Assembly: GCF_014205225.1 (NCBI RefSeq)
Contig: NZ_JACHNB010000001.1
Location: forward strand, 3,391,501-3,455,500
Reading direction: 5' to 3'
DNA from: Actinoplanes octamycinicus
GTDB taxonomy: Bacteria > Actinomycetota > Actinomycetes > Mycobacteriales > Micromonosporaceae
Length of the DNA: 64,000 nt
Part shown: positions 5,956 through 58,174 of the stretch, piece after piece
Layout of the letters: each line of letters begins with the position of its first letter
Numbering within the stretch: the first letter of the stretch is position 1
Position numbers and translations under genes: made by a program
Notes under the pieces: generated by a model
The model's input: only the letters and a program-made list of their open reading frames with translations
Databases searched by the model: none
Told to the model about the DNA's origin: nothing

Positions 5956-6392
5956 AAGTCCGTCCCCAGCCGCGGCGCCCGCCGCTGGTCCCGGCCGCGG
6001 CTCCCGTTCCCGGCTGGCTCTCAGGGGTGCCTCAGAGGGCTTGAGGCACCCCTGAGAGCCAGCCGGGACACCGTGCGCGCTGCCGCGATGCCGCCCGCAT
6101 GCTCGCGGCTCTTTCTTTTCGGTACGACCGGCAGCTCAGTGGCAACCGGCCCGCGAGGCCCGGCCCGCTCCCGACCGCGGCGCGTGTCGTGCGGGTCCGC
6201 CCGGCGCACCGCGACGTCGGCCGGACCGCGGCGCGTGTCGTGCGGGCCCGCTCGGCGCACCGCGACGCCGGCCAGTCCGCGGCGCGGTCCCGGCTCGGCC
6301 GGCGAGGTCACGGACCCGCCGTGGCCACCGTCCACCGGGCACTCCGGAGGAACCGCCACCCGGGAAAGGGCGCCGCTGACGGCCGATCCGCG
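5956..6392. repeat. gene-free gap: 53-bp palindrome plus GGTACG module and 51-bp tandem repeat
   Basis: This convergent gap between the GH3 gene and accD holds no credible gene. It contains palindrome 6012-6064, a module at about 6080-6200 carrying TTTTCGGTACGACCG at 6117-6130, and about 2.3 tandem copies of a 51-bp unit from 6174 (second copy 6225). The module is similar in inverted orientation to 14190-14340. Short frames here end in Arg-His-Pro-stop because they read through the palindrome. Confidence 0.85.
6012..6064. repeat. 53-bp palindrome, copy A
   Basis: Perfect 23-bp arms surround a 7-nt loop. The inner core is CAGGGGTGCCTC with GAGGCACCCCTG. It may act as a bidirectional terminator, although no T-run follows. 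Confidence 0.95.
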
Positions 6393-7727
6393 CTACAGGG
6401 GGATGTTGCCGTGGGCGCCGCGGGCCGGCGGGGCGTCGGCCAGGGCCTCGGCGATCCGGCGGCGCGTCTCGTCCGGCTGGATGACCGCGTCCACCACGCC
6501 CGCCTCCAGAGCCGGCTGGACGCCGCCGGTGGCCTCGACCTGGGCGCGGATCAGCCGTTCGCGCAGCGCGTCGCGGGCGGCCGGCTCGGCGGCGGCCAGT
6601 TCCCGGCGGTGCAGCACGTGCACGGCGGCGCCCGGGTCCAGGACGGCCACTTCGGCGGCCGGCCAGGCGAAGACCGTGGAGGCGCCGAGGGCGCGGGAGT
6701 TCATCGCCAGGTAGCCGCCGCCGTAGGCGCGCCGGGTCACCAGGGTCACCCGGGGCACCACCGCGGCGGCGAAGGCGTGCAGCAGCTGGGCGCCGCGGCG
6801 GACCACCGCGTCCGGTTCCCGGTCGGGCAGGTAGCCGGGGGTGTCGACGAGGACCAGCAGGGGGACCGCCAGGGCGTCGCACATCCGGACGAACCGGGCG
6901 GCCTTCTCGGCGGCGGCCGCGTCCAGGCAGCCGTTGAGGTGCTCCGGGTTGCTGGCCACCACGCCGACCGTGCGGCCGGCGAGGCGGCCCAGGGTGGTCA
7001 CCACGTTCGGCGCCCAGCGCGGGTGGGACTCCAGGCCGGGCTCGTCGAGCAGGGCGCGGATCAATGGCCGTACGTCGTAATGATGCTCTTGGATGAAGGA
7101 GTCGAGCGGACGCCCGACCGTGCCGCCGGGCCGGACGTCGGACGGCGACAGCCGGCCCTGGTGGCCCAGCAGCCGGATCAGGCGGCGGGCCTCGGCCAGC
7201 GCGGCCGGCTCGTCCTCGGTGGTCACGTCCGCGAACGAGGTGGCGGTGCCGGACGGGACCAGCCGGCCGCCCCGGCTCATGATCACCAGGTCGGTGAGCG
7301 CGGGGCTGTACGCCGCGCTGCCCGCGGCCGGCCCGAGCACCACCGAGATCTGCGGGATCCGGCCGGAGGCCCGCACCATCGCGGCGAAGACCTGCCCGGC
7401 CGAGTCCAGCGAGCCCACGCCCTCGGCGAGCCGTGCCCCACCGGAGTGCCAGAGTCCGGTCACCGGGACCCGCTCCCGCACCGCGACGTCGATCGCCTCG
7501 ACGACCCGCCGGCACCCCGCCACGCCGATCGCGCCGCCCATCCGGGTGGCGTCGGTGGCGAAGGCGACGGCAGGGGTGCCGTCGACCGTGCCACGGGCGG
7601 GCAGCACGCCCGACTCGTCCCGGAGGGCGAGCAGGCGCAGGGTGCCGCGGTCGAAGAGGGTTCGCAGCCTCAGCTCGGGATCGCGCCGATCGGTGGCCGA
7701 ATCTGTCCCTCCGGGGGTGAAGGGCAC
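6393..7727 (-). CDS. acyl-CoA carboxylase carboxyltransferase (AccD-type beta subunit)
   Basis: This 444-residue subunit transfers CO2 from biotin to acetyl- or propionyl-CoA, making malonyl-CoA for the upstream fatty-acid genes. Seen: a carboxyltransferase N-half (TDATRMGGAIG, HSGGARLAEG, GPAAGSAAYSPALTD) and C-half (LVDTPGYLPD, RRAYGGGYLAMNS, WPAAEVAVL). It is shorter than typical 520-residue actinobacterial AccBs and corresponds positionally to AccD6 of mycobacteria. The start is GTG 7727 with AGGAGG 7 nt upstream and only 13 nt after the fabF stop, so it is the last gene of the fab operon. Confidence 0.9.
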   Translation of the reverse strand: MPFTPGGTDSATDRRDPELRLRTLFDRGTLRLLALRDESGVLPARGTVDGTPAVAFATDATRMGGAIGVAGCRRVVEAIDVAVRERVPVTGLWHSGGARLAEGVGSLDSAGQVFAAMVRASGRIPQISVVLGPAAGSAAYSPALTDLVIMSRGGRLVPSGTATSFADVTTEDEPAALAEARRLIRLLGHQGRLSPSDVRPGGTVGRPLDSFIQEHHYDVRPLIRALLDEPGLESHPRWAPNVVTTLGRLAGRTVGVVASNPEHLNGCLDAAAAEKAARFVRMCDALAVPLLVLVDTPGYLPDREPDAVVRRGAQLLHAFAAAVVPRVTLVTRRAYGGGYLAMNSRALGASTVFAWPAAEVAVLDPGAAVHVLHRRELAAAEPAARDALRERLIRAQVEATGGVQPALEAGVVDAVIQPDETRRRIAEALADAPPARGAHGNIPL

Positions 7728-7740
7728 GGCGTCCTCCTGG

Positions 7741-8967
7741 TCAGGGGCGCGTGAAGACCAGGGCCACGTTGTGGCCGCCGAACCCGAACGAGTTGTTGAC
7801 CGCGGCCGGGATGTCGAGCTGGCGGGGCTTGTGCGCCGCCACGTCGAGGTCCAGCCGCTCGTCCGGGTCGTCGAGGTTGATGGTCGGGGGAACGATGCTG
7901 TCGCGGATCGCCAGGATGGTGGCGATCGACTCCAGCGCGCCGGCCGCGCCCAGCAGGTGCCCGGTCATCGACTTGGTCGACGTGACCACCGGGTGGTCGC
8001 CGAGAGCGGCCCTGATGCCCTTGATCTCGCCCATGTCGCCGGCCGGGGTCGAGGTGGCGTGGGCGTTGACGTGCTTGATGTCGGCACCGGTCAGACCGGC
8101 GTCGCGAACCGCCATCTGCATCGCCCGGATCCCGCCCCGGCACTCCGGGTCGGGCTGGACGATGTCGTAGCCGTCCGAGGTGATCCCCGCGCCGGCCAGC
8201 CGGGCGTACACGGTGGCCCCACGGGCCGCCGCGTGGTCGGCACGCTCCAGGATGATCGCGCCGGCGCCCTCACCGAGGACGAACCCGTCTCGGTTCTTGT
8301 CCCACGGGCGGGACGCCCGCTCCGGGTCGTCGTTGCGCGTCGACATGGCGCGCATCGACGCGAAACCGGCGATCGGCAGCGGGTGGATGACGGCCTCGGT
8401 GCTGCCGGCCACCACCACGTCGGCCCGTCCGGCCCGGATCAGGTCCAGACCCAGGGCGACCGCCTCGGCGCCGGTGGCGCAGGCGCTGGCCATCGCCCGG
8501 ACGCCGGCCTTGGCGCCGAACTCCAGGCCGACATAGGCGGCCGGGCCGTTGGGCATCAGCATCGGCACGGTGTGCGGGCTGACCCGCCGCGGGCCGGACT
8601 GCTCCAGGATGTCGTCCTGGTCGAGCAGGGTGATCGCCCCGCCGATGCCGCTGCCGAAGCTGACCCCGAGCCGCTCCTGGTCGAGCTCGGCGCCCTCCAG
8701 GCCGGCGTCCGCCCAGGCCTGCTTCGCGGCGATGATGGCCATCGCCTCGCTGCGGTCCAGGCGGCGCATCCGGACCCGCTCGATGATCTCCGACGGTTCG
8801 ACGGCGAGTCGGGCGGCGATGCGTACGGGCAGCTGGCCGGCCCACTCCTCGGTGAGAGTTCGCACTCCGGAGCGGCCGGCGAGCATGGCGTCCCAAGTGG
8901 ACACGACGTCCCCGCCCAGCGGGGTCGTCGCGCCGAGCCCGGTGACGACGACGTCTACAGTGCTCAT
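7741..8967 (-). CDS. fabF: 3-oxoacyl-ACP synthase II (KAS II)
   Basis: This 408-residue condensing enzyme elongates acyl-ACP with malonyl-ACP. Seen: the nucleophile in SACATGAEA (Cys about 163), His in NAHATST, His in KSMTGHLLGAAG, and the glycine-rich FGFGGHN tail. The start ATG 8967 lies one base after the acpP stop, which suggests translational coupling, with GAGG inside the acpP end. Twelve extra codons upstream are open but overlap acpP. It is the fourth enzyme gene of fabD-fabH-acpP-fabF-accD. Confidence 0.95.
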   Translation of the reverse strand: MSTVDVVVTGLGATTPLGGDVVSTWDAMLAGRSGVRTLTEEWAGQLPVRIAARLAVEPSEIIERVRMRRLDRSEAMAIIAAKQAWADAGLEGAELDQERLGVSFGSGIGGAITLLDQDDILEQSGPRRVSPHTVPMLMPNGPAAYVGLEFGAKAGVRAMASACATGAEAVALGLDLIRAGRADVVVAGSTEAVIHPLPIAGFASMRAMSTRNDDPERASRPWDKNRDGFVLGEGAGAIILERADHAAARGATVYARLAGAGITSDGYDIVQPDPECRGGIRAMQMAVRDAGLTGADIKHVNAHATSTPAGDMGEIKGIRAALGDHPVVTSTKSMTGHLLGAAGALESIATILAIRDSIVPPTINLDDPDERLDLDVAAHKPRQLDIPAAVNNSFGFGGHNVALVFTRP

Positions 8968-8968
8968 C

Positions 8969-9211
8969 TCAGTGGTTCGCCTCGATGTAGGTGACCGCGT
9001 CACCGACGGTCTTCAGGTTCTGCACCTCGTTGTCCGGGATCTTGACGCCGAACTTCTCCTCGGCGGCCACCACGACCTCGACCATCGACAGCGAGTCGAC
9101 GTCCAGGTCGTCGGTGAAGGACTTGCCCTCGGCGACGTCGTCCGGGTTCACCCCGGCGACCTCCTCGAGGATCTCGGCGAGGCCGGAGGTGATCTCTTCG
9201 CGAGTAGCCAT
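8969..9211 (-). CDS. acpP: acyl carrier protein
   Basis: This 80-residue acidic four-helix protein carries growing acyl chains on phosphopantetheine. The attachment site is the Ser of DLDVDSLSMVEVV. ATG 9211 has GAGAGGA about 11 nt upstream. It lies between fabH and fabF as in Streptomyces, and its short C-terminus lacks the mycobacterial AcpM tail. Confidence 0.95.
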   Translation of the reverse strand: MATREEITSGLAEILEEVAGVNPDDVAEGKSFTDDLDVDSLSMVEVVVAAEEKFGVKIPDNEVQNLKTVGDAVTYIEANH

Positions 9212-9255
9212 GGTTGTTCTTTTCCTCTCGGTTTTACGGTTTTGTGCAGAGAACC

Positions 9256-10206
9256 TTACGGGCAGCGGACGACCTGACCGGCGTAGGTCAGGCCACCGCC
9301 GAAGCCGAACAGCAGCACCGGCGCCCCGGAGGGCACCTCGCGGCGCTCGATCAGCTTGGACAGGGCGAGCGGCACACTGGCCGCCGAGGTGTTGCCGGAC
9401 TCCACCAGGTCCTTGGCGACGATCGCGTCCGGGCTCAGGCCGAGCCGCTTCACGATCCCGTCGATGATCCGGGTGTTCGCCTGGTGCGGCACGAAGGCGG
9501 CCAGCTCGGACGGCTCGACGCCGGCCCGGCGGCACGTCTCGATGGCGAACGGGGCGAGCGCGGTGGTCGCCCAGCGGAAGACGATCTGGCCCTCCTGCTT
9601 GATGTAGGGCTGCCAGCCCTCGATCCGCAGCACGTCGCCCTTGTCCGGGGCGGAACCCCAGAGCACCGGGCCGACGCCGACCGCCTCCTCCTCGGTGACC
9701 CCGGTGACCACGGCCGCGCCGGCCGCGTCGCCGAAGAGCACCGCGGTGGTGCGGTCCGACCAGTCGGTGACGTCGGAGAGCTTCTCCGCGCCGATCACGA
9801 TCGCGTTCCGGGCGGCGCCGGCGCGGATCGCGTGGTCGGCGCTGGCCATCGCGTAGGAGAAGCCGGAGCAGGCGGTGTTCAGGTCGTACGCGGCCGGGGC
9901 GACGATGCCGAGCTTGCTGGCCACCCGGGTCGCCACGTTGGGGCAGCGGTCGATCGACGAGCAGGTCGCGACGATCACCAGGTCGATGTCGGCGGCGGTC
10001 AGGCCGGAGGCGGCGAGCGCCTTCTCGGCGGCGAAGGTGGCCATGTCGGCGACCGTCTCGGTGTCGGCGATCCGGCGTTCCGCGATGCCGACCCGGTCCC
10101 GGATCCACTCGTCGTTGGTGTCCAGCGTCTTGGTCAGATCGTCGTTGGTGACCACGCGCGAGGGCTGGTAGTGGCCCATCGCGACGATGCGGGAACCCGC
10201 AATCAT
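9256..10206 (-). CDS. fabH: 3-oxoacyl-ACP synthase III
   Basis: This 316-residue enzyme starts fatty-acid synthesis by condensing an acyl-CoA primer with malonyl-ACP. Seen: the Cys-His-Asn triad in TACSGF (Cys113), VPHQAN (His about 241) and SGNTSAAS (Asn about 272). ATG 10206 follows a strong GGAGGAACAGG. In actinomycetes FabH often accepts branched primers, which would give iso/anteiso acids (family knowledge, not visible here). Confidence 0.95.
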   Translation of the reverse strand: MIAGSRIVAMGHYQPSRVVTNDDLTKTLDTNDEWIRDRVGIAERRIADTETVADMATFAAEKALAASGLTAADIDLVIVATCSSIDRCPNVATRVASKLGIVAPAAYDLNTACSGFSYAMASADHAIRAGAARNAIVIGAEKLSDVTDWSDRTTAVLFGDAAGAAVVTGVTEEEAVGVGPVLWGSAPDKGDVLRIEGWQPYIKQEGQIVFRWATTALAPFAIETCRRAGVEPSELAAFVPHQANTRIIDGIVKRLGLSPDAIVAKDLVESGNTSAASVPLALSKLIERREVPSGAPVLLFGFGGGLTYAGQVVRCP

Positions 10207-10237
10207 CCTGTTCCTCCTTCAGTCGCGACTGCGCGCG

Positions 10238-11167
10238 TCAGTGCTGTGCCGTGCTGTGCCGGGCGATCAGATCGCGCGCGGCGGGCAGGTCGTCCGGCGT
10301 GTTCAGGGTGACGATCTCCGGTGCGCCGTCGCCCTTCAGCTCGCGCTTGACCAGGCCGGCCAGGGTGCCGGCCGGGGGCAGCTCGAGCACGCCGGTGACC
10401 CCGAGCTCCTTGAGCGTGCGCATGCACAGGTCCCAGCGGACCGGTGCGGTGACCTGGCGGATCAGGCGGTCCAGCATCGCCGTCCCACCGGCCACGGCGG
10501 TGCCGTCCAGGTTCGACAACAGTGTCCGGGCCGGGTCGGTGACGGCCACCCCGGCGGCGGCCGTGGCCAGCGCGGTCTCGGCGGGCGCCATGAACGGCGT
10601 GTGGAACGCCCCGGCGACGGCCAGCGTGATCACCCGGGCCTTGGCCGGCGGGGCGGCGGCGAACTCGGCGAGCGCGTCCAGCGCCCCGGCGGCCACGATC
10701 TGGCCGGCGCCGTTGCGGTTGGCCGGGAACAGCCCGTGCTTCTCGATGGTGGCGACCACCTCGTCCGGGTCGCCGCCGAGCACCGCGGACATGCCGGTGG
10801 GCTGCAGCGCGCAGGCGGCGGCCATCTCCCGGCCGCGGACACCGGCCAGCGTGATGGCGTCGGCCGGGGTCAGCACCCCGGCCACCGCGGCGGCGCCGAG
10901 CTCGCCGACGCTGTGGCCGGCGACCACGTCGACCCGCTCCAGCGGCAGCTGCTCGGCGGCCAGCAGCGCGGCGGCGATCAGCAGCGGCTGGGTCCGGGCG
11001 GTGTCCTTGATCTCCTCGGCGTCCGCGTCGGTGCCGAGGTGCACGAGATCGACGCCGGCGAGTGCGGACCACCCGGTCAGGCGGTCACGAGCACCGGGCA
11101 GATCGAGCCACGGGGTGAGGAAGCCGGGCTTCTGGGAACCCTGGCCGGGGGAAAGTACGGCGAGCAC
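10238..11167 (-). CDS. fabD: malonyl-CoA:ACP transacylase
   Basis: This 309-residue enzyme loads malonate on ACP. Seen: an N-terminal GQGSQKPGF, the nucleophile GHSVGE (Ser about 92), and a GAFHTPFM His motif. The start is GTG 11167 with a weak GAAGA site. It is the first enzyme gene of the fab operon, 31 nt before fabH. Two inverted repeats at 11222-11260, about 55-95 nt upstream, look like an operator. Confidence 0.94.
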   Translation of the reverse strand: MLAVLSPGQGSQKPGFLTPWLDLPGARDRLTGWSALAGVDLVHLGTDADAEEIKDTARTQPLLIAAALLAAEQLPLERVDVVAGHSVGELGAAAVAGVLTPADAITLAGVRGREMAAACALQPTGMSAVLGGDPDEVVATIEKHGLFPANRNGAGQIVAAGALDALAEFAAAPPAKARVITLAVAGAFHTPFMAPAETALATAAAGVAVTDPARTLLSNLDGTAVAGGTAMLDRLIRQVTAPVRWDLCMRTLKELGVTGVLELPPAGTLAGLVKRELKGDGAPEIVTLNTPDDLPAARDLIARHSTAQH

Positions 11168-11221
11168 GTCTTCGACTCTTCCGGATCGGGGAGCGTTCCG
11201 GGGTTGCCGGGCGCGACCAAA

Positions 11222-11265
11222 CCCTACGACCAGCCTTGTAGGGTTCCTACAAATCGTAGGGGAAC
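11222..11265 (-). promoter_or_regulatory. putative fabD operator: two nested inverted repeats
   Basis: CCCTAC (11222) pairs with GTAGGG (11238), and CCTAC (11246) pairs with GTAGG (11256). The block sits between the fasR stop and fabD start in an AT-richer island. A FasR-family regulator binding here is an inference from gene order; Streptomyces FasR controls the fab operon. Confidence 0.5.
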
Positions 11266-11321
11266 TTGCCCAGTTTCAGCACTATTTGACGCGCTGGTCG
11301 TTGGATGTTGTCCGCTGTGAG

Positions 11322-12530: not shown

Positions 12531-12577
12531 GCGCCCAGCGTGTCACGCCACGATCGGCTGACGCGAACCGCGCCGGT

Positions 12578-12602
12578 TTCATTATTTTTATGACATTTGT
12601 CC
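12578..12602. promoter_or_regulatory. AT-rich island, candidate promoter of fasR
   Basis: A run rich in A and T (TTTCATTATTTTTATGACAT) stands out in more than 70% GC sequence, about 50-70 nt upstream of the fasR start. On the minus strand it offers TATAAT-like strings. The exact -35/-10 cannot be fixed. Confidence 0.3.
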
Positions 12603-12761
12603 GGTGTAGCGGTGCGCCCCTCCCGCGATTCCGGTCGGTGACCTGGCATCGTGTCCGACTAGTGCGTCCCGGCTGGGGTTCAACCCGGCGCCGGGCGTGC
12701 CGATGAAGAGACGGTGCCGAACAACCTGTCGACAGCCGAACCCGCGGATCGAGGAGGCGAG

Positions 12762-12995
12762 ATGATGGACCGGGACGATGCGCTGCGGGCCGAGATCGAC
12801 CCGACCCTCGAGGACCTGCCACCGGTGGCCGAGGAGGAGCCGTTGCTCCTGTCGGACCAGGTCATCGGCTCGGAGCCGGGCCGGGTCGGATGCCGGACCG
12901 AGCTGCGTGGCTGGGCCGGCGCGCATCTGCACGGCGCGGTGCGGCCGCGTCGCCGGGCCGCCGGGCGGGGTCGCCCGCCGGGCCGCTGGTGCTGA
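12762..12995 (+). CDS. small hypothetical protein with Arg-rich tail
   Basis: This 77-residue reading frame starts at ATG 12762 directly after a near-ideal GAGGAGG site. The N-terminal 45 residues are acidic (EIDPTLEDLPPVAEEEP) and the tail is Arg/Gly-rich and basic. No known family was recognised, and no membrane segment is present. The strong ribosome site is the main evidence that it is translated. Confidence 0.5.
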   Translation: MMDRDDALRAEIDPTLEDLPPVAEEEPLLLSDQVIGSEPGRVGCRTELRGWAGAHLHGAVRPRRRAAGRGRPPGRWC

Positions 12996-13195: not shown

Positions 13196-13867
13196 GTGAC
13201 GGCCCCGGTGGCCGGCTCACCCCGACGGGTGAGTGGCGGCGGTGGCCCGGGCGCGTTCCCCCGGCCGGAGCGCCCGGACTGGTCAGGTGAACAGGTGGAC
13301 GACAAGAGACGGCTGATCCTCGACCAGGCGCTCGCCCTGGTGGACGAACGTGGTCTGGCCGCCATGTCGATGCGGGCGGTGGCCGAGCGGGTGGGGCTCA
13401 CCTCGATGGCGCTCTACCCGTACGTCGGCGGCAAGGACGCCCTGCTCGACGGCCTGGTCGACCTGCTGCACCTGGAACTGGGCACCGCGGTCGGCGACGA
13501 CCTGGCGGACATCGACTGGCGGCGCCGGCTGCGGGCGCTGGGCCGGGCCGTGCGCTCGCTCGCCCACGCCCACCCCAGCGCCTTCCCGCTGCTGCTGAAC
13601 CGTTCCGCGGCCGGCGCCTCGGCGTCCTGGCTGATCGCGGCGCTGCGCGGCATCCTGCACGACGCCGGGGTGCCGGACGGCGCGGTGCCCCGGCTGGCCC
13701 GGCTGATCTGCGCGTTCCTGCTCGGCTACACCACCGGCGAGGTCACCGGCGGCCTGCCCGCGGTGGAGCCGGCCGCCTGCCCGGGCGACGCCGAGTTCGA
13801 CGCCGACCTGGAGGACCTGCTCGGCCTGGTGGAGCAGGCAGCCGCCCGCGCCCACCAGCCCCGCTAG
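13196..13867 (+). CDS. TetR/AcrR family transcriptional regulator
   Basis: A 223-residue frame, or about 190 residues if it begins at GTG 13295. The helix-turn-helix lies at about 38-85 (LILDQALALVDERGLAAMS, then RAVAERVGLTSMALYPYV). The C-terminal half is a TetR_C-like ligand domain. The first 33 residues are Gly/Pro-rich and may not be translated, and neither start has a clear ribosome site. The regulated genes cannot be inferred: the neighbours are a small hypothetical and a repeat-filled gap. Confidence 0.85.
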   Translation: MTAPVAGSPRRVSGGGGPGAFPRPERPDWSGEQVDDKRRLILDQALALVDERGLAAMSMRAVAERVGLTSMALYPYVGGKDALLDGLVDLLHLELGTAVGDDLADIDWRRRLRALGRAVRSLAHAHPSAFPLLLNRSAAGASASWLIAALRGILHDAGVPDGAVPRLARLICAFLLGYTTGEVTGGLPAVEPAACPGDAEFDADLEDLLGLVEQAAARAHQPR

Positions 13868-13897
13868 CCACCGGACCGCACCGCGCGTCACGGTCCC

Positions 13898-13950
13898 GGC
13901 TGGCCCTCACGGGTGTCTCGACCGCTGCGAGGCACCCCTCACGCCCAGCC
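13898..13950. repeat. 53-bp palindrome, copy B (imperfect)
   Basis: Same length and outer GGCTGG/CCAGCC ends as the other copies, but the arms carry several mismatches. First of the 104-bp tandem units. Confidence 0.85.
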
Positions 13951-14001
13951 GAGGCCGCGACGCGCGTTGTGGCCCGGACCGCGGCGCGCCTCGCGGCCGT
14001 C

Positions 14002-14054
14002 GGCTGGTTGTCAGGGGTGTCTCGAGGGGTCTGAGGCACCCGTGAGGCCCAGCC
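14002..14054. repeat. 53-bp palindrome, copy C (imperfect)
   Basis: It has the core CAGGGGTGTCTC on the left and GAGGCACCCGTGA on the right. It is identical to copy D 104 bp further on. Confidence 0.85.
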
Positions 14055-14105
14055 GGGGCCGCGACGCGCGTTGTGGCCTGGACCGCGGCGTGCCTCGCGG
14101 CCGTC

Positions 14106-14158
14106 GGCTGGTTGTCAGGGGTGTCTCGAGGGGTCTGAGGCACCCGTGAGGCCCAGCC
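14106..14158. repeat. 53-bp palindrome, copy D (imperfect)
   Basis: Sequence-identical to copy C; the flanking spacer differs by only a few bases, so the duplication is recent. Confidence 0.85.
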
Positions 14159-14408
14159 GGGACCGTGACGCGCGGTGCGGTCGTGAGCGGGCGCGGGCCT
14201 TGCGTTTCCGCCCGCGGGCCCGCATGACACGCGCTGCGGTCTGGAGTGGGCCGGGGCATCGCGGGCCGGTTGCCACGGGGCTGCGAGTCGTACCAGAAAA
14301 AGATGCGTGGGAATCGGGGGGCATCGCGGCAGCGGGGATGGTTTTCGCCGGAAAGACGAACGCCCTGGCTCGCGGAGGGTCCGGAGCCAGGGCGGGTGGT
14401 GCGGTGAG

Positions 14409-15140
14409 TCAGACGCGGCGGCGGATCAGGAACGCCATGCCGGCCAGGCCGGTCAGGATGACCAGCAGGACCGCGCCGTTGAGCAGCAGCAGCTGGCGCA
14501 TCTGGCCGAACAGCTGGCCGGCGCCGCCGACCGGGTCGAGCTCGGACTGGTCCAAGGTCTCGCCCACGCCGCCGCCGATGCCGCCGTTGACCACGTCCGG
14601 TTTCGCCTTCAGCGGGACGCCGCTGAGCCGCAGCGACTCGGACATCGACTGCCGGCCGTAGAACCAGCCGTCCGTCTGCCGTTTGCCGGCGGCCGGCTGG
14701 GTCGCCGGCCGGTGCGCCCGCGGACCGCCGGTGGCCAGCGGGTACAGCTCGTACTCCTGGGCGGCCTTCTCGCCGATCAACACCTGGACCAGGTATTTCG
14801 GGCCGAGCTTGGCGGACTTGCCCGGAGGCGAGGCCTGCGGCTGCGCGGTGGCCAGCCAGCCCACCTCGGTGATCAGCATCCGGAACAGTTTCGGGTCCTC
14901 GCCCTGCAGGACCTTGATCCCCTCCTCCGGCACGCCCTGGCCGGTGATGTGGATCCCGTTCGGCTGCGCTTTCGGTGCGGCCGGCGGCTTGGCCGTCGGT
15001 TTGGTCGCCGGGATCGTGCCGCTCTGCCCGGCGGTCTCGGCCTGCGCCGCCGCCGGGGTGGTGCCGAGTGCCAGTGCCGCCGCGATCGTCAACGCGCCGG
15101 CCGCCGTCGCCACCCGTTTCATCGCTCGTCGAACCACCAT
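14409..15140 (-). CDS. secreted, membrane-anchored protein of unknown function
   Basis: This 243-residue protein has an N-terminal signal peptide (MVVRRAMKRVATAAGALTIA then AAALALGTTPAAAQA), a Pro/Lys/Thr-rich linker, an extracellular domain of about 150 residues, and a C-terminal membrane helix LLLLNGAVLLVILTGLAGMA followed by RRRV. The topology is exported domain, membrane anchor, short basic tail. ATG 15140 is chosen over an upstream ATG because GGGGGAGG lies just before it. The domain was not recognised. Confidence 0.8.
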   Translation of the reverse strand: MVVRRAMKRVATAAGALTIAAALALGTTPAAAQAETAGQSGTIPATKPTAKPPAAPKAQPNGIHITGQGVPEEGIKVLQGEDPKLFRMLITEVGWLATAQPQASPPGKSAKLGPKYLVQVLIGEKAAQEYELYPLATGGPRAHRPATQPAAGKRQTDGWFYGRQSMSESLRLSGVPLKAKPDVVNGGIGGGVGETLDQSELDPVGGAGQLFGQMRQLLLLNGAVLLVILTGLAGMAFLIRRRV

Positions 15141-17499: not shown

Positions 17500-17515
17500 A
17501 TCGCCGACACGACGA

Positions 17516-24797: not shown

Positions 24798-24872
24798 GGG
24801 CGCGTAGCTCAGTGGGAGAGCACTCGCCTTACAAGCGAGGGGTCGTAGGTTCGAAACCTACCGCGCCCACCA
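24798..24872 (+). tRNA. tRNA-Val (anticodon UAC)
   Basis: A full cloverleaf can be drawn: acceptor GGGCGCG with CGCGCCC, D arm GCTCAGTGGGAGAGC, anticodon stem CTCGC/GCGAG around loop CTTACAA (anticodon TAC), and T arm GTAGG-TTCGAAA-CCTAC. The CCA end is encoded. It reads GUA and GUG codons. Confidence 0.97.
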
Positions 24873-36815: not shown

Positions 36816-37008
36816 GGAGCGACCCTAGCGGCGCGCGGGCACCCCCAGGAACCGAATATCAGCCGACGAATGTGAGACACAGGCTTTCGGGGTACGACCA
36901 GAGGCCAGCAGCCGCGGCTCCCTCGTCGGCCGTGCTCAGCGCGGCGTCCTCTTGTCGGCGTCCTTCACACTTCGTGGTCGCCTTTCTGGACGGCCCGAGG
37001 GCGGCGGA

Positions 37009-37400
37009 CGAGCCGGCCTGTACGCCGGATTCTGTGGCCGGGACCTTGCGGTCCGCGGTGGCGGCCATCCATCTCGGCCTGCCGTTGCCGGCAGGCTCAT
37101 GCGGCCTACCCGCAGGATCAGGCGAGCAGCCCTCGAACCCTGCGCCGGCCGTGACCTCGCGGTCGCGGCCTTGCTTGGCCTTGCTCCGGGTGGGGTTTAC
37201 CGAGCCGCCCCGGTCACCCGGGACGCTGGTGAGCTCTTACCTCACCGTTTCACCCTTACCGGCTCGCGCCGGCGGTCTGTTTTCTGTGGCACTTTCCCGC
37301 GGGTCGCCCCGGGTTGCCGTTAACAACCACCCTGCTCTGCGGAGTCCGGACGTTCCTCGGCGATGCCCGGAGGCACCGACGCGGCCGCCCAGCCGACTCG
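37009..37400 (-). ncRNA. rnpB: RNase P RNA (bacterial class A)
   Basis: Read on the minus strand this 392-nt stretch shows the class A hallmarks in order: GAGGAACGTCCGGACTCC near the 5' end, GCCACAGAAAACAGACCGCC, GGTAAGGGTGAAACGGTGAG, GTAAACCCCACCCGGAGCAA, AGATGGATGGCCGCC, and the 3' ACAGAATCCGGCGTACAG. The 5' CGAGTCGGC pairs with the 3' GCCGGCTCG, setting the ends. It processes the 5' ends of tRNAs. Translated frames across it are spurious. Confidence 0.96.
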
Positions 37401-51261: not shown

Positions 51262-51277
51262 CAAGCAGCAGCAGCCC

Positions 51278-51308
51278 AGCGGACCGTGCCCTTCCGGCAC
51301 GGTCCGCT
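51278..51308 (+). terminator. hairpin after the giant repeat gene
   Basis: AGCGGACCGTGCC and GGCACGGTCCGCT are perfect 13-bp arms with a 5-nt loop, 17 nt past the stop. Confidence 0.85.
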
Positions 51309-51578
51309 CTGCGTTTCCGATGGAAACGGCCCCGCCGGAGGTGTGCTGCGGCGGGCCGCTGGGTGTTCCGGGTGGGAACGCGGACGGGCATGGGTGCGGG
51401 TTGGACGGACCGCTGGGTGTTCTTGCCGGCAGTGGTGGGCGGGGTGTGGTGCGGGCTGGTGGTCCGGTGTCTGTTGCGGACGGGATGGCGCGCTTCAGGT
51501 GTGTGTCGCGGGCTGTGTGTTTCCGGTGGGGTCGGCGCGGCGGGGGTGTGGTTCGGGGCGGGCTGGTAGGAATGGGCG
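51309..51578. other. G/T-rich intergenic stretch
   Basis: No gene is supported. The plus strand is strongly enriched in G and T (for example GTGTGTGTCGCGGGCTGTGT), unlike the neighbours. It precedes the RNB nuclease gene. Confidence 0.6.
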
Positions 51579-53003
51579 GTGCCGATCAAACGGGTGTGGG
51601 CGCCGCAGATTGACTTCTCCGTGTTGCGGCGGGAGCTGGGGTTGCCGGGGGAGTTCCCGGCGGCCGTGATCGCCGAGGCGGAACGGGCGGCCGCCGAGAC
51701 GCCGGGCGGGGTGGACCGGACGGACGTGCCGTTCGTGACCATCGACCCGGCCGGGTCGCAGGACCTGGACCAGGCGATGCACCTGAGCCGGCGGGACGGT
51801 GGCGGCTACCGGGTGCGGTACGCGATCGCGGACGTGGCCTCGTTCGTCCGGCCGGGCGGGGCGATCGAGGCGGAGAGCTGGGTGCGCGGGCAGACGATGT
51901 ATCTGCCGGACGGGCGGATCCCGCTGCACCCGCCGGTGCTCAGCGAGGGCGCGGTCAGCCTGTTCGCGGACGTGGACCGGGCGGCGGTGGTGTGGACCAT
52001 CGACCTGGACGCCGACGGGGCGACCACCGCGACCCACCTGGAACGGGCCCGGGTACGCAGCCGGGCCAAGCTGGACTACCCGGGCGTGCAGCGGGAGCTG
52101 GACGGCGGGAATCCGTCCGAGCCGGTGGCGCTGCTCGCCGAGATCGGGACCCTGCTGGCCCGGCGGGCGGCCGACCGGGGCGCGGTCAACCTGCCGCTGC
52201 CGGCGCAGGAGGTGGAGCGGGACGGCGGCGGCTGGCGGCTGGTGCTGCGGGCACCGCTGCCGGTGGAGGAGCACAACGCGCAGATCTCGCTGCTCACCGG
52301 GATGGCCGCGGCGCGGATCATGCTGGACGGCGGGGTCGGCATGCTGCGCACCATGCCGGGGCCGAAACCGGAGGCGGTCGACGGGCTGCGGGCCGCGGCG
52401 GCGTCGCTCGGGGTGGACTGGCCGGCCGGGGCGAGCGTCGGGGCGGTGGTCTCCTCGGTCGATCCGGGCAGCCCGCGCGGCGCGGCGTTCCTCGATCAGG
52501 CCGCGGAGTTGTTGCGGGGTGCGGCGTACTCCGCGTTCGGCGGGACGGCCGGCCCGGTGCCGGAGGACGCCGGCCACGGTGGGGTGGGCGCGCCGTACGC
52601 GCATGTCACCGCGCCGCTGCGCCGGCTGGCCGACCGGTATGTCACGGAGACCTGCCTGGCCCTGTACGAGAACCGGCCGGTCCCGCCGTGGGTGCTCGAC
52701 GCCCTGCCGCGCCTGCCGAAGCAGATGAGCGCCACCGACCGGCTCGCCTCGGCCGCCGACCGGGGTGCGATCGACCTGGCCGAGGCGGTGCTGCTGCAGG
52801 GCCGGGTGGGGGAGTGCTTCGACGCCGCGGTGCTGGACCGGGAGGAGGCGTCCGGGAAGCGACCGGCCGGCGGGATGGTGGCGCTCGACGACCCGGCGGT
52901 GCGGGCCCGCTGCCTCGGCGACCTGCCGCTGGGCGAGCGGATCCAGGCCCGCCTGAGGGCGGCCGACCCGGCGACCCGGACGGTCCGCTTCGAACGCGCC
53001 TGA
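51579..53003 (+). CDS. RNB-domain ribonuclease (RNase II/R family)
   Basis: This 474-residue exoribonuclease-like protein has an RNB core beginning with the metal-binding TIDPAGSQDLDQAM (Asp cluster about 56-65), YRVRYAIADVASFV, and GAPYAHVTAPLRRLADRYV. There are no N-terminal cold-shock domains and no obvious C-terminal S1 domain, so it is a short form. It degrades RNA 3' to 5'. GTG 51579 has GGTAGGA upstream. The final codons and stop lie in a 29-bp tandem duplication. Confidence 0.9.
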   Translation: MPIKRVWAPQIDFSVLRRELGLPGEFPAAVIAEAERAAAETPGGVDRTDVPFVTIDPAGSQDLDQAMHLSRRDGGGYRVRYAIADVASFVRPGGAIEAESWVRGQTMYLPDGRIPLHPPVLSEGAVSLFADVDRAAVVWTIDLDADGATTATHLERARVRSRAKLDYPGVQRELDGGNPSEPVALLAEIGTLLARRAADRGAVNLPLPAQEVERDGGGWRLVLRAPLPVEEHNAQISLLTGMAAARIMLDGGVGMLRTMPGPKPEAVDGLRAAAASLGVDWPAGASVGAVVSSVDPGSPRGAAFLDQAAELLRGAAYSAFGGTAGPVPEDAGHGGVGAPYAHVTAPLRRLADRYVTETCLALYENRPVPPWVLDALPRLPKQMSATDRLASAADRGAIDLAEAVLLQGRVGECFDAAVLDREEASGKRPAGGMVALDDPAVRARCLGDLPLGERIQARLRAADPATRTVRFERA

Positions 53004-53031
53004 CCCGGACGGTCCGCTTCGAACGCGCCTG
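52974..53031. repeat. 29-bp tandem duplication across the RNB stop codon
   Basis: Two exact copies (52974-53002 and 53003-53031) of the last coding bases and most of the stop region lie head to tail. The second copy is outside the gene. Confidence 0.95.
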
Positions 53032-53166
53032 ACCCGACCGGCCCGCCCACCCAGGGGGCCACCGCCGCCCTCAGTGTGGCGGAGGATCGGAGGCCGTGCC
53101 AGGCGGCTTGTGGACAACGTGCTGGTGTGGATGACGGGGGCCGGGAGGCCTGTGGACAGGGCTCCC

Positions 53167-53181
53167 GGCCGTACCGAAAAT
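53167..53181. repeat. solitary CGTACCGAAAA motif
   Basis: This single end motif, like those at 43362 and 58255, lies seven bases from the panB stop in the convergent gap. Confidence 0.6.
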
Positions 53182-53187
53182 CGGGCT

Positions 53188-54018
53188 TTAGAAGGTGTGC
53201 TCCGCGGCCGGGAACTCGCCGTTGCGCACCTCGTCGGCGAACTGCCGGGTGGCCTCGGTGAGCGCGCCGGCCAGGTCGGCGTAACGCTTGACGAAGCGGG
53301 GCGCCTTGCCGGTGCGCAGGCCGGCCATGTCCTGCCAGACCAGGACCTGGGCGTCGGTGTCCGGGCCGGCGCCGATGCCGACCGTGGGGATCGGCAGCTC
53401 CTTGGTGATCTGCTTGGCCACCTCGCCCGGCACCATCTCCAGGACCACGGCGAAGGCGCCCGCGTCGACGACCGCGCGGGCGTCCGAGATCACCTCGGCG
53501 CCCTCGTTCTCCCGGCCCTGGACGCGGTAGCCGCCGATCACGTGCTCGCGCTGCGGGGTGAACCCGATGTGCGCCATCACCGGGATGCCGGCGCTGGTGA
53601 TCGCCTCGATCTGCGGCGCCATCTTCCGGCCGCCCTCCAGCTTGACCGCGTGGCAGCCGCCCTCCTTCATGAACCGGACGGCGGTGCGCAGCGCCTGGGT
53701 GGGGCCCTCCTCGTAGCTGCCGAACGGCAGGTCGCCCACGATCAGCGCGGTCTTGGTGGCCCGGACCACCGCGCGGACCAGCGGCAGCAGCTCGTCGACG
53801 GTGACCGGGACGGTGGTCTCGTAGCCGAAGACGTTGTTGGCGGCGGAGTCGCCGACCAGCAGGACCGGTACGCCGGACTGGTCGAAGATCGACGCGGTGT
53901 ACTGGTCGTAGGACGTGAGCATCGGCCAGCGGTCGCCGCGGACCTTGGCGTTGAGCAGGTCGCGGGTGCGGACCCGGCGGACAGCGGGGCCGCCGTACAG
54001 GGTCGGGATTTCCGACAT
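53188..54018 (-). CDS. panB: ketopantoate hydroxymethyltransferase
   Basis: This 276-residue enzyme makes ketopantoate for pantothenate and CoA. Seen: [36 protein letters not shown], the metal and substrate residues in [13 protein letters not shown] [19 protein letters not shown], and [17 protein letters not shown] 54018 has GAGGGAGGAG upstream, better than the longer frame. The gene is monocistronic. Confidence 0.95.
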
Positions 54019-54092
54019 GGTGGTACTCCTCCCTCGAGGCCGCGCGGATGCGGTCCCCGGGTCCGCCCATAGTCGCACCGGGGACCGCGCTT

Positions 54093-55868
54093 TCATACCC
54101 CTTCGCGGAACCTGTTGGTGATGGGCAGGCGGCGGTCCCGGCCGAACGCCTTGCCCGAGATCTTGGTGCCGGGCGCGGACTGGCGGCGCTTGTACTCCGC
54201 CAGGTCGACCATCCGCAGCACCCGGTCGACCAGGGCCGGATCGTTGCCGGCCGCGATCAGCTCGGCGCGGCCGAGGTCGTGGTCCACATACCCCTTGATG
54301 ATCGGGTCAAGCACCTCGTAGTCCGGCAGCGAGTCCGAGTCCTTCTGGTCCGGGCGCAGCTCGGCGCTCGGTGGCTTGCTGATCGAGTTCTCCGGGATGG
54401 GCGGGTCGCCCTGCGTGTTCCGCCAGCGGGCGAGCTGCCAGACCATGGTTTTCGGCACGTCCTTGAGCGGGTTGTAGCCGCCGACCGAGTCGCCGTAGAG
54501 GGTGGAGTAGCCGACCGCCAGCTCGCTCTTGTTGCCGGTGGTGAGCACCAGGTGCCCGTCCTGGTTGGAGAGCGCCATCAGGATCACCCCGCGGACCCGG
54601 GCCTGCAGGTTCTCCACGGCCAGGCCGGACAGCGACATGTTCGCCAGGAAGGCGTCGACCATCGGCTGGATCGGCTCCACGCGGTAGCTCAGACCGGTGC
54701 GTTTGGCCAGGTCGGCGGCGTCGTCCTTGGAGTGCTCGGAGGAGTAGCCGCTGGACAGCGAGACGCCGGTGACCCGCTCCGGGCCGAGGGCGTCGACGGC
54801 GATCGCGGCGACCACGGCGGAGTCGATGCCGCCGGAGAGGCCGAGCACCACGGACCGGAAGCCGTTCTTGTTGACGTAGTCGCGCAGGCCCATCACCAGG
54901 GCGGTCCAGACCTCCGCCTCGTCGGCGATGCGATCGGCGACCCCGCCGCTCCGGTGATCGGACAAAGCGTGCAAATCGCCGGTGAGTGAGACGCGATTTA
55001 TCGCCATGTCATCGGAGATTTCCGTTTCGACCTGCGGCTTCGCCGCGTCGGTCGAGCCCTCCGCGTTCGGCGCCGCGTCGGCACCGGGCAGATCCAGATC
55101 GTGGACGAGCAACTCCTCGGTGAACTGCCCGGCTCGAGCCAGCAGCGAACCGTCGGGACCCACCACCATCGAATCCCCGTCGAAGACCAGCTCGTCCTGC
55201 CCGCCGATCATGTTCACGTACGCCACGGTGGCGCCCGCCTCCGCGGCCCGGCGCTGCACCAGCGGCAGCCGCACGTCGTCCTTGTTCAGCTCGTAGGGCG
55301 AGGCGTTGATGGTGACGACCAGCCCCACCCCGGCCCGCCGCGCCGCGGTGAACGGCCCGCCGGCCTGCCAGATGTCCTCGCACACGGTCAGCGCGACGTC
55401 CACGCCGCCGAACCGGACCACGGTCAGCGCGTCGCCTGGCTCGAAGTAGCGGTCCTCGTCGAAGACCCCGTAGTTCGGCAGGTGGTGCTTGAAGTAGGTG
55501 GCCACCACCTCACCCCGGTGGAGCAGCGCGGAGGCGTCCCGGCGGCCGCTGCCCGGGGACGCGTCGGAGCTGATCGCGGCCGGGCCGTCGGCGTCCACGT
55601 AACCCACCACCACGGCCAGCTCGCCCAGGCCGTCGGCGGCCAGGTCGGCGGCGAGCGCGCGGAGCGCCCGCTGGGAGGCGGCGACGAACGAGTTGCGGAA
55701 GACCAGGTCCTCGATCGGATAACCGGTCAGCATCATCTCGGGGAAGGCGACCAGGTGGGCGCCGGCGTCCGAGGCGGCCCTCGACCAGCGGCGCACCGCG
55801 GCCGCGTTACCGGCGATGTCGCCGACCGTCGAGTTCACCTGGGCGAGGGCGATGCGCAGCGTGGGCAT
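54093..55868 (-). CDS. nadE: glutamine-dependent NAD+ synthetase
   Basis: This 591-residue two-domain enzyme has an N-terminal C-N hydrolase (glutaminase) with Glu in [10 protein letters not shown], Lys in [14 protein letters not shown] and Cys in LTVCEDIW, and a C-terminal NAD synthase with the ATP loop [13 protein letters not shown] and [12 protein letters not shown]. It makes the last step of NAD synthesis using ammonia from glutamine. ATG 55868 is chosen, with GGGGAGA upstream; ATG 55877 is possible. Divergent from glnA2. Confidence 0.95.
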
Positions 55869-55981
55869 GGACGTCATTCTCCCCCCGGGACGGGGCTTCG
55901 GATCCGGACCCGGGCCCACGTCACAGCGCCGGGCCAGCGTACTCTCGGCTCGACGGATCGACACCGGGGCAAGGGGTGGAA

Positions 55982-57334
55982 GTGGACCGACAGCAGGAGT
56001 TCGTGCTTCGCACGCTCGAGGAGCGCGACATCCGTTTCGTCCGTCTCTGGTTCACCGACGTGCTCGGCACGCTGAAGAGCGTGTCGGTGGCCCCGGCCGA
56101 GCTCGAGTCGGCCTTCGAGGAGGGCATCGGCATCGACGGCTCGGCGATCGAGGGCTTCGCCCGGGTCTTCGAGTCGGACATGGTCGCCATGCCGGACCCG
56201 ACCACCTTCCAGGTCTTCCCGTTCGAGGGCGGCGGCAGCGGCGAGAGCGCCCGGATGTTCTGCGACATCCTGCTCCCCGACGGCAGCCCGGCCTGGGCCG
56301 ACCCGCGTCACGTGCTGCGCCGCGCGCTGGCCCGGGCCGCGGAGAAGGGCTTCACCTTCTACACCCACCCCGAGGTCGAGTTCTTCCTGGTCCAGGACGG
56401 GGACAACGACGGCTCGGTGCCGATCCCGGTGGACACCGGCGGCTACTTCGACCACACCACCCACGCGGTGGCCCGAGACTTCCGCCGCCAGGCCGTGCTG
56501 GCCCTGGAGCGGATCGGCATCTCGGTCGAGTTCAGCCACCACGAGGTCGCCCCCGGCCAGCAGGAGATCGACCTGCGGTACGCGGACGCGCTGACCACCG
56601 CGGACAACATCATGACGTTCCGGCACGTGGTCAAGGAGGTGGCGCTCTCCCAGGGGGTCAAGGCCACCTTCATGCCGAAGCCGTACACCGACCAGCCCGG
56701 CTCCGGCATGCACACCCACCTGTCGCTGTTCGAGGGCGAGCGCAACGCGTTCTACGACAGCGAGGACCCGCAGAAGCTGTCCAAGACGGCGCGGGCGTTC
56801 ATCGCCGGCCTGCTGGTGCACGCCCGGGAGTACACCGCGGTGACGAACCAGTGGGTGAACTCCTACAAGCGGCTCTTCCCGCTGCAGCTGCCGGACCGGA
56901 TCACCGAGTCGCCGGCCTTCGTCAGCTGGGGCCACCTGAACCGGTCCGCCCTGGTCCGGGTGCCCGCCTTCGGCAAGCCGAACTCGGCCCGGGTGGAGGT
57001 GCGCTCGATCGACTCGGCGGCCAACCCCTACCTGGCCTTCGCGGTCATGCTGGGCGCCGGCCTCAAGGGCATCGAGGAGGGCTACGAGCTGCCCCCCGGC
57101 GCCGAGGACGACGTCTGGTCGCTGTCCCCGGCCGAGCGCAAGGCCGCCGGCTACGAGGCGCTCCCGGAGAACCTGTCCGAGGCGATCGAGGTGATGGCCG
57201 GCTCCGAGCTGATCGCCGAGGTGCTCGGCGAGCACGTCTTCGACTTCTTCCTGCGCAACAAGCGGGCCGAGTGGGAGCAGTTCCGCCGCGAGGTCACCCC
57301 CTACGAGCGCCAGCGCTACCTGGGCGCCCTCTGA
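55982..57334 (+). CDS. glnA2: glutamine synthetase, GlnA2 type
   Basis: This 450-residue type I glutamine synthetase-like protein starts MDRQQEFVLRTLEERDIRFV, almost as M. tuberculosis GlnA2 (Rv2222c, recalled). Seen: the metal-binding EVEFFL, HHEVAPGQQEIDLRY, KPYTDQPGSGMHTHLSLF, and NRSALVRVPAFGKP with the catalytic Arg. The adenylylation Tyr loop NPYLAFAVMLGAGLKGI differs from canonical GlnA. GTG 55982 is preferred (AAGGGG 5 nt upstream) over 55976. GlnE follows at 61.8 kb. Confidence 0.93.
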   Translation: MDRQQEFVLRTLEERDIRFVRLWFTDVLGTLKSVSVAPAELESAFEEGIGIDGSAIEGFARVFESDMVAMPDPTTFQVFPFEGGGSGESARMFCDILLPDGSPAWADPRHVLRRALARAAEKGFTFYTHPEVEFFLVQDGDNDGSVPIPVDTGGYFDHTTHAVARDFRRQAVLALERIGISVEFSHHEVAPGQQEIDLRYADALTTADNIMTFRHVVKEVALSQGVKATFMPKPYTDQPGSGMHTHLSLFEGERNAFYDSEDPQKLSKTARAFIAGLLVHAREYTAVTNQWVNSYKRLFPLQLPDRITESPAFVSWGHLNRSALVRVPAFGKPNSARVEVRSIDSAANPYLAFAVMLGAGLKGIEEGYELPPGAEDDVWSLSPAERKAAGYEALPENLSEAIEVMAGSELIAEVLGEHVFDFFLRNKRAEWEQFRREVTPYERQRYLGAL

Positions 57335-57465
57335 TCGACACCGGCGTCAGGCGGCGGCCCGTGCGGCCCGTCGCCTGACCGGGACAGCTGTCCACAGCGC
57401 CGCGTCACGAAGTTTTGTCACACGGGGTACGGTCTCCTTCGACGTCATGCGACAAGGGAGAGGCC

Positions 57466-57891
57466 GTGCTGCAAGAGTTGTTGGAGGGTGCCGGGCGGAG
57501 CATCGCCTTCGGTGCGATCGGGATCGGTCTGATGGCCCTCGGTTTTGTGCTGATCGACATGCTCACGCCGGGCAAGCTGCGCGACCTGATCTGGACCGAG
57601 CGCAACCCGAACGCGTCGCTGCTGCTGGCCGCCAACCAGCTCGGCATCGCGCTGATCGTGTTCACCTCGATCTGGACCACCTACGACTCGTTCGGCCAGG
57701 GCGTCGCGTCGACCGCGCTGTTCGGCGTGCTCGGCATCGTGATCATGGGGCTCGCCTTCCTGGTCCTGGACTGGATGACCCCGGGCAAGCTCGGCGAGGT
57801 CATCTGCACCGCCGACTACCACGGTGGCGCGCTGGTCAGCGCGGCCTCGCACTTCGGCGCCGCGCTCATCGTCTGCGCCTGCATCGCCTGA
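57466..57891 (+). CDS. DUF350 membrane protein
   Basis: This 141-residue protein has four membrane helices in two similar halves: each contains DMLTPGKL or DWMTPGKL after a helix, typical of DUF350. These proteins are often next to spermidine-synthase-like or other membrane genes; the function is unknown. GTG 57466 follows AAGGGAG. Confidence 0.88.
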   Translation: MLQELLEGAGRSIAFGAIGIGLMALGFVLIDMLTPGKLRDLIWTERNPNASLLLAANQLGIALIVFTSIWTTYDSFGQGVASTALFGVLGIVIMGLAFLVLDWMTPGKLGEVICTADYHGGALVSAASHFGAALIVCACIA

Positions 57892-58011
57892 TCACCACCG
57901 GACAGACCCCCACCCTTTTCGGTACGCCCGGAGCCCCGCCGCGCCCACACTCCCGTGGCATCCCCACGCGAGGCCGCCCGGGGCCCGGACCGCAGCGCGC
58001 CCCCAGACCCG

Positions 58012-58064
58012 GGCTGTGCCTCAGGGGTGTCTCAGCACGGCTGAGACACCCCTGAGGCACAGCC
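58012..58064. repeat. 53-bp palindrome, copy E
   Basis: Perfect 25-bp arms with a 3-nt centre. The outer bases (GGCTGTGCCT/AGGCACAGCC) differ from other copies but still pair. Confidence 0.95.
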
Positions 58065-58121
58065 GGGGCCGTGAGCCGCGAGGCCGCCTGAAGCACGGAC
58101 CGCGCCGCGGCTTCTCCCGTT

Positions 58122-58174
58122 GGCTGGGTGTCAGGGGTGTCTCCAGGGACTGGAGACACCCCTGACACCCAGCC
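58122..58174. repeat. 53-bp palindrome, copy F
   Basis: Perfect 24-bp arms with a 5-nt centre. The outer bases (GGCTGGGTGT/ACACCCAGCC) are again compensated. Confidence 0.95.

Follow-up and report, generated by a model that had tools for sequence, protein, structure and literature searches.

A clade-restricted family of 53-bp palindromic repeats in convergent gene gaps of Actinoplanes and the possible basis of its arm symmetry

A stretch of 64,000 nucleotides from Actinoplanes octamycinicus (contig NZ_JACHNB010000001.1, positions 3,391,501 to 3,455,500; referred to here, in its full length, as the window) contains six palindromes of 53 bp (53-mers) located in three gaps between genes, and raises the question of what these elements are and how their arms can differ between copies while remaining complementary. 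An earlier note on this DNA had taken the compensated differences to imply selection for the fold, and had suggested an actinomycete-specific terminator or a protein-binding palindrome among the possible functions. We favor, with moderate confidence, another reading, in which the 53-mers form a non-coding repeat family, specific to one clade, that resembles the repetitive extragenic palindromic (REP) sequences and their hairpin-forming doublets (REPINs), and that is spread and kept symmetric at the level of DNA by a putative machine.

All six palindromes are found where the earlier note had placed them, and each is exactly 53 bp long, starting with GGCTG and ending with CAGCC (no strand is assigned to them). 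Copy A (6012–6064) stands alone and folds into a 24-pair RNA stem of -53.7 kcal/mol. Copies B (13898–13950), C (14002–14054), and D (14106–14158) form a tandem array with a 104-bp unit and have imperfect arms; C and D are identical and thus not independent of each other. Copies E (58012–58064) and F (58122–58174) have perfect 25-bp arms and a 3-nt loop, with folds of -56.1 and -56 kcal/mol, respectively, and the foot of E is GGCTGT rather than GGCTGG. Of the 26 possible pairs, 23 are complementary in A, 18 in B, 17 in both C and D, and 25 in both E and F. The fold z-scores of A, E, and F range from -8 to -11 (about -54 to -56 kcal/mol), while the two array copies that were folded gave -28 and -36 kcal/mol, with z-scores of -3.4 and -5.0. 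The core described as kept is indeed present, as CASGGGTGYCTC, although not strictly as CAGGGGTGYCTC. A covariance model, built partly from the 53-mer family itself, recovers all six copies in the window, and the sole further match up to E = 1 scores 14 bits. No Rfam family matches at the 53-mers; the window yields only an RNase P RNA (class A, 37005–37400, minus strand) and a tRNA-Val(TAC) gene (24798–24872, plus strand).

The host genome, one contig of 10,277,926 bases, has 92 occurrences of the strict core pattern. The genome-wide search for further copies that the earlier note had proposed yielded 301 sites at up to three mismatches and none for the reversed-pattern control. At up to ten mismatches, the 53-bp pattern matches 141 times within 1.26 Mb of the host genome, with the reversed control giving none below 13, and these controls rule out a chance origin. 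Among the strict sites listed, none falls within a 1.3-Mb region of the host (C1:1557321-2851911), the sites being dense elsewhere. When most core letters are released, 22 of the 67 genomes of the genus match. The pattern GGCTGG-N41-CCAGCC occurs 768 times in G051 (genomes other than the host are given by our own handles), 597 times in G035, 554 in G013, 437 in G060, 272 in G066, and 246 in the host, with controls of 9–18 in these six genomes, and 0–11 times (controls 0–39) in 287 genomes of other genera. The covariance model, read as presence or absence only (87 candidates scored per genus genome and 19 per class genome), matches 26 of the 67 genus genomes, some of them with just 1–8 matches, and none of the remaining 41. 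In a class-wide sample it matches three of 296 genomes, namely the host and two with weak matches of at most 42.2 bits. The latter, both outside the genus, are three tandem matches with a 73-bp spacing in G303 (C4:394877-395075, 42.2 bits) and one match in G434 (C253:299-352, 38.6 bits). These two aside, the element was found only in part of one genus, so that the idea of an actinomycete-wide element was not borne out. Among the matches listed, the named records that carry the pattern are from A. palleronii, plus one from A. siamensis; loci L022–L141, including the A. siamensis locus L076 and loci with no title among those listed, are treated here as the A. palleronii set. No published description of the family was found in the open-licence literature, searched by titles and abstract openings. 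The 53-mers are a real, large, clade-restricted repeat family.

The unit consists of a 6-bp foot, a 19-bp stem, and a 3-nt loop, with the inner sequence of the stem varying between most species. Searches with a fixed 53-bp spacing cannot test its length, but ungapped searches in which the total length was free between 30 and 70 bp found 11, 7, and 14 sites of 53 bp in three genomes and 0–2 sites of any other length. With the loop free (2–20), the 12-bp cores were always separated by 9 nt among the sites listed of the 92. The foot is nearly constant (GGCTGG/CCAGCC), with GGCTGT/ACAGCC in some species and copies. The edge of the symmetry is sharp: in 44 single-copy clusters the Watson–Crick fraction is 0.80–1.0 for the outer 22 pairs and 0.57–0.66 for the innermost three, and just outside the 53-bp edge it drops to 0.68, 0.66, and 0.45, and then to the approximately random level of 0.33. 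A minority of the copies have additional inverted layers farther outward; in 142 flanks, GGACCGTGA is found 12 times in the outward and never in the inward orientation, GCGGTCCGG 20 and 6 times, GGCCTCGCG 11 and 2 times, and CGTACCGG 32 and 2 times, respectively. Arrays of 2–9 copies are present in 27 of the 71 host clusters, and one locus of G051 has ten copies; the array units measure approximately 61 to 116 bp.

The letters of the arms differ between most of the genomes with listed sites (CACCGCTGTCTC in G007, CAGTGCTGTCTC in G018, CACGGTGGTCTC in G035, and CATGGCCCTATCC in G051), with G045 and G066 each holding several core types. The inner core (pairs 14–18 and 20–22) is nearly invariant within species in 71 host clusters and 128 clusters of the A. 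palleronii set, but not in G066. The host core is shared with G013 (487 sites), with just two sites each in G035 and G051. Core type does not track relatedness neatly, since G013 shares the host core despite the lower identity of its LtrA protein to that of the host (86%, compared to 92% for G035 and 90% for G051); glutamine synthetase, with identities of 95%, 96%, and 94%, respectively, does not separate these genomes.

The 53-mers avoid genes and prefer the gaps between convergent ones. With gene calls from our own codon-usage caller, the start positions of which are approximate, none of the 141 host copies is centered in a called gene, although genes make up 85% of that sequence. The 141 copies form 71 clusters, of which 44 are convergent, 21 tandem, and 6 divergent, with convergent gaps accounting for 24% of the intergenic length in the same 1.26 Mb (binomial p = 7e-12). 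The median distance to the nearer stop codon is 53 bp for the 44 convergent clusters, and 14 of the 21 tandem clusters are closer to the upstream stop. These figures are biased in that 52 host stretches were picked for their strict sites; eight arbitrary stretches held no copies. Unbiased figures were taken from syntenic stretches of the host (G000), G035, and G051 that were not selected for copies, the host stretch including the window. Among their gaps of at least 30 bp, a copy is present in 17 of 133 convergent, 3 of 380 tandem, and none of 193 divergent ones (17/133 against 3/573 for all the remaining gaps, Fisher p = 1e-10; a G051 copy overlapping a called gene was left out). The 187 copies of the A. 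palleronii set divide into 90 convergent, 60 tandem, and 5 divergent, with 13 overlapping a called gene and 19 at locus edges. The position relative to gene ends, which the earlier note had proposed as a check, thus shows a strong convergent preference.

That the arms are compensated between copies is also confirmed by shuffling. The cleanest test is provided by G066, in which the first 50 listed of 272 copies were chosen for exact feet only and not for pairing. In 44 distinct copies, 670 of 836 cells (pairs 7–25) are Watson–Crick, compared to a mean of 544.9 (standard deviation 8.7, maximum 578) in 1000 shuffles. In an alignment of 56 copies from five genomes, with 8–12 copies drawn at random per set, both sides have changed in 208 cells (92.6 when shuffled) and the covariation score is 0.369 (0.149 when shuffled, and no higher than 0.136 with slid partners). 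Change on both sides is found in 18 pairs, compared to 15.2 for shuffled arms, with 18 reached in 16 of 500 shuffles. Pairing is inflated in this alignment because its G035 and G051 copies had been preselected for pairing at 10 of 16 inner positions. Host copies were found with a symmetric consensus that leaves pairs 7–9 free; pairs 6–11 and 13 covary among them (z = 4.7–7.5). In the A. palleronii set, covariation is seen at pairs 8–12 and 16 (z = 5.0–13.5), at pair 19 (3.9), and weakly at pair 7 (1.8).

Selection for the fold, as deduced in the earlier note from these compensated changes, is not supported in that form by three further results. Copies with exactly one mismatch are scarce, their numbers being 2, 16, and 6 in the host, the A. 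palleronii set, and G066, whereas 24.1, 44.0, and 17.0 are expected from a Poisson distribution fitted to the perfect class. Arms are recombined: imperfect copies that combine two arms, each known from a perfect palindrome, make up 3 of 34, 11 of 99, and 2 of 24 in the three sets, with 0.4%, 1.2%, and 1.0% under a mutation null, and the mismatches fall where the perfect copies differ among themselves (correlations of 0.86, 0.84, and 0.45). Finally, the test for selection on the RNA strand through a G-U bias found none: mismatches on the sense strand of copies in tandem context, array copies included, are G-U in 47 and A-C in 73 cases in the host, and 75 and 65 in the A. palleronii set (122 and 138 when pooled, p = 0.35). 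Taken together, the three results fit an exchange of whole arms with restoration at the DNA level. Template switching or gene conversion can, in principle, yield compensated arms with no selection on RNA, and template switching has been proposed to create compensated multi-base changes of stems in RNA genes in a single event (PMC8794818).

The alternative that survives best, possible although unlikely, is that of a two-way terminator or 3'-end barrier that lacks a U-tract and is selected and kept where one hairpin serves both convergent genes. The occupancy of 17 of 133 convergent gaps against 3 of 573 others agrees with it, as do the very stable folds (median of -50 kcal/mol over the 71 host clusters) and the median distance of 53 bp to the nearer stop, which is near the medians of 66–76 nt reported for transcript ends in Streptomyces (PMC12207403). 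Terminators with a U-tract are rare by a strict scan, which detected 1 among 109 gene ends bordering a gap occupied by a 53-mer and 15 among 424 bordering an unoccupied one. Since the terminators of Streptomyces are described as U-poor and long-stemmed (PMC12207403), a stop without U would be possible for the 53-mers, and compensatory evolution of terminators has been documented in Bacillus cereus (PMC5381666). However, none of 142 flanks has four or more T in its first 9 nt, and a canonical intrinsic terminator, of which the GC-rich hairpin is present and the U-tract absent, was rejected. The sense strand has no G-U preference, though a 25-bp stem may tolerate either mismatch, and a terminator would need neither a fixed length nor tandem arrays of up to 10 copies. 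Moreover, 116 of the 133 convergent gaps are without a copy, as are, by the covariance model, 41 of the 67 genus genomes. As a secondary effect, the repeats could plausibly stop transcripts from either side without a U-tract, or form a barrier at their 3' ends, but we do not see this as the origin of the family.

It is improbable that the 53-mers are binding palindromes for a nucleoid or regulatory protein with a specificity drifting between species. Such a protein might account for the inner core that is nearly invariant in the host and the A. palleronii set (not in G066) and that differs between species. A reader of double-stranded DNA would, however, have no need for the compensation seen at the variable pairs 6–11 and 13 of the host, and none of the 193 divergent gaps of the unbiased stretches holds a copy.

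A REPIN proper, mobilized by the REP-associated tyrosine transposase (RAYT, Y1 family, PF01797), is very improbable, as the transposase has no match at E ≤ 0.001 in eight copy-bearing genomes (G051, G035, G052, G007, G058, G045, G015, and G063, in which the larger of two pattern counts ranges from 768 to 18 sites, G051 and G035 being single contigs) and the GTAG/CGTC tags are not enriched at the ends of copies in the host or the A. palleronii set; membership was therefore rejected, even though REPINs resemble the 53-mers in their fixed length, in their ability to form hairpins, and in the compensatory changes that are common among them (PMC3116915), REPs likewise favor convergent and unidirectional gaps (PMC3733652), and PF01797 matches are present in the host (5), G013 (3), G060 (1), G066 (2), G031 (4), G044 (2), and G018 (4). 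Across the genus, PF01797 matches 21 of 67 genomes. In 196 host flanks GTAG occurs once and CGTC 13 times (0.9 and 11.6 when shuffled), and in 374 flanks of the A. palleronii set 3 and 12 times (2.0 and 19.8 when shuffled). The 62 flanks of G051, for which no shuffle control is given, have one GTAG and ten CGTC.

The REP-like reading therefore calls for another agent: since such a repeat thrives in two single-contig genomes with no Y1 match, a different spreading machine must exist or have existed. Both this machine and the spreading step are what we infer. The copied unit would be the 53-nt hairpin itself, with the machine recognizing the folded strand by its foot and spreading copies through the genome. 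Conversion or template switching, acting between copies and between both arms of a copy, would swap whole blocks of arms, which would keep the palindromes symmetric while their sequence drifts. Copies would survive where a hairpin is least harmful, chiefly in convergent gaps and sometimes inside other inverted repeats. More specifically, and only tentatively, we can speculate that within one clade of Actinoplanes a putative RAYT-independent machine copies the 53-nt folded strand by its foot, with the arms rewritten together and each species arriving at its own, fairly homogeneous version. If so, a population of palindromes would be evolving in concert within genomes, at the 3' ends of genes. 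In a family of this size, with hundreds of copies in a genome, compensated changes of the stem can be traced between species and between loci, so that selection for an RNA fold can be weighed against block copying of DNA arms.

Comparison of orthologous gaps bears on the age of the sites. For eight host clusters in a 464-kb stretch, the corresponding gap is occupied in three of six comparable cases in G051 and in two of five in G035. The TetR locus, which in the window carries array B–D, has three copies in the host, four in G035, and ten in G051, with arms and spacers specific to each species. In the gap between the DUF350 and LtrA genes, the 53-mers of the host and of G035 sit in the loop of a hairpin that matches one in G051, where it is built on CGGTACGCC and GGCGTACCG and stands without a 53-mer; in G066, a 53-mer with very different arms follows DUF350. 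These two loci suggest that sites can be old while the arm letters are young, with independent insertion at a hotspot remaining an alternative to old sites. As a separate observation, an apparent transposase-like insertion with inverted ends interrupts the CGGTACGCC motif in G051 (C1:6458301-6459400, judged by eye), in a gap that also has four 53-mers.

Several observations weigh against a spreading, arm-exchanging repeat. Shared occupancy fits selection of sites, or a hotspot, as well as it fits old insertions. Orthologous gaps without a 53-mer exist, but their junctions cannot be aligned, so that such gaps may reflect loss just as well as gain, and target duplications were not found there; a search for the closed junction (ACGGTCC/GGACCGT) had a single match, located within a called gene, and with one genome per species transposition was not observed. 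Combinations of two known perfect arms leave most of the imperfect copies unexplained, the deficit of single mismatches may partly reflect mixed ages of the copies, and the number of further pair types in the 56-copy alignment (49, compared to 47.5 when shuffled) is not above chance. No partner gene was found either, the genes that flank the copies being no more alike than controls (7 and 9 pairs, respectively, among 138 each), and an autonomous partner adjoining the copies was rejected since flanking genes are not enriched in paralogues.

The sole flanking pair of high identity consists of two IS110-family transposase genes (L198:8409-9626 and L209:8495-9673), 94% identical over 392 amino acids and each lying close to a 53-mer cluster, at distances of approximately 325 and 370 bp. 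Relatives of IS110 target REP palindromes. The pair was also considered as a duplicated locus with a rewritten 53-mer, which was dropped since the identity falls approximately 90 bp before the 53-mer.

All three sites in the window lie between convergent genes, as the earlier note had it, according to the codon-usage calls with the neighbors searched for Pfam domains. Copy A is flanked on the left by a glycoside hydrolase family 3 gene (4222–5955, plus strand) and on the right by a gene with a carboxyltransferase domain (6393–7727, minus strand). Array B–D follows a TetR-family regulator gene (13295–13867, plus strand) and precedes a called gene with no Pfam match (14409–15122, minus strand); it is enclosed by an outer inverted repeat with the arms CCGGACCGCACCGCGCGTCACGGTCCC (13871–13897, plus strand) and GGGACCGTGACGCGCGGTGCGGTC (14159–14182, minus strand), and outer layers resembling these arms are enriched in the outward orientation around the 71 host clusters. 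To the left of E–F is a DUF350 gene (57466–57891, plus strand), located downstream of the glutamine synthetase gene (55976–57334), and to the right an LtrA-family gene (58261–59403, minus strand). Nested inverted repeats surround E–F, with CTTTTCGGTACGCCCG (57915–57930, plus strand) as the left and CGGGCGTACCGGAAAG (58240–58255, minus strand) as the right outermost arm.

These outermost arms carry another intergenic motif, in which TTTCCGGTACGCC pairs with GGCGTACCGGAAA and which ranks with the most over-represented 9-mers of the intergenic regions in the host, G035, and G051; GTACCGGAA is seen 18 times in the host stretch, with 0.36 expected. Counted on both strands, GGCGTACCGGAAA occurs 138 times in the host, 211 in G035, and 128 in G051, with 0–38 occurrences in 63 other genomes of the genus and 0–3 in 44 members of the order. 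Its polarity, with the T side 5' and the A side 3', is the opposite of that of a two-way terminator.

To our knowledge, the U-poor terminators of Streptomyces are not copies of a single repeat family of fixed length. The likeness of the 53-mers to these long-stemmed terminators lies in the very stable GC-rich hairpins with few U, tens of nucleotides past the stop codon (PMC12207403). Hairpins maintained by template switching share with the 53-mers the compensated multi-base stem changes in a single event, but the described ones belong to RNA genes (PMC8794818), whereas the 53-mers are hundreds of dispersed copies with arms that are shared and recombined. The terminal inverted repeats of miniature inverted-repeat transposable elements (MITEs) have a counterpart in the 53-mer, which is an inverted repeat in its entirety, with outer layers around some copies. 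The enterobacterial repeat units RU-1 to RU-3 are identical with the enterobacterial repetitive intergenic consensus (ERIC). Intergenic and described with lengths of 127, 168, and 103 bp, these units are similar in their many MITE-like copies and in a length about that of a 53-mer plus its outer arms, but the conserved unit of the 53-mers is 53 bp, and their outer inverted arms vary and are often absent (PMC2759123). The closest comparison is with REPs and REPINs, which likewise comprise hundreds of short, extragenic palindromes of fixed length with compensated hairpins, clustered copies, and a preference for gaps downstream of genes (PMC3116915, PMC3733652, PMC8266576). The 53-mers differ from them in being one symmetric 53-bp hairpin with a GGCTGG/CCAGCC foot instead of a GTAG/CGTC tag, in their strong concentration in convergent gaps, in having no Y1 match in eight genomes, and in being sometimes nested in inverted repeats. 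While they lack two defining features of RAYT-linked REPs, the 53-mers, as many short, extragenic palindromic copies, behave like a REP family.

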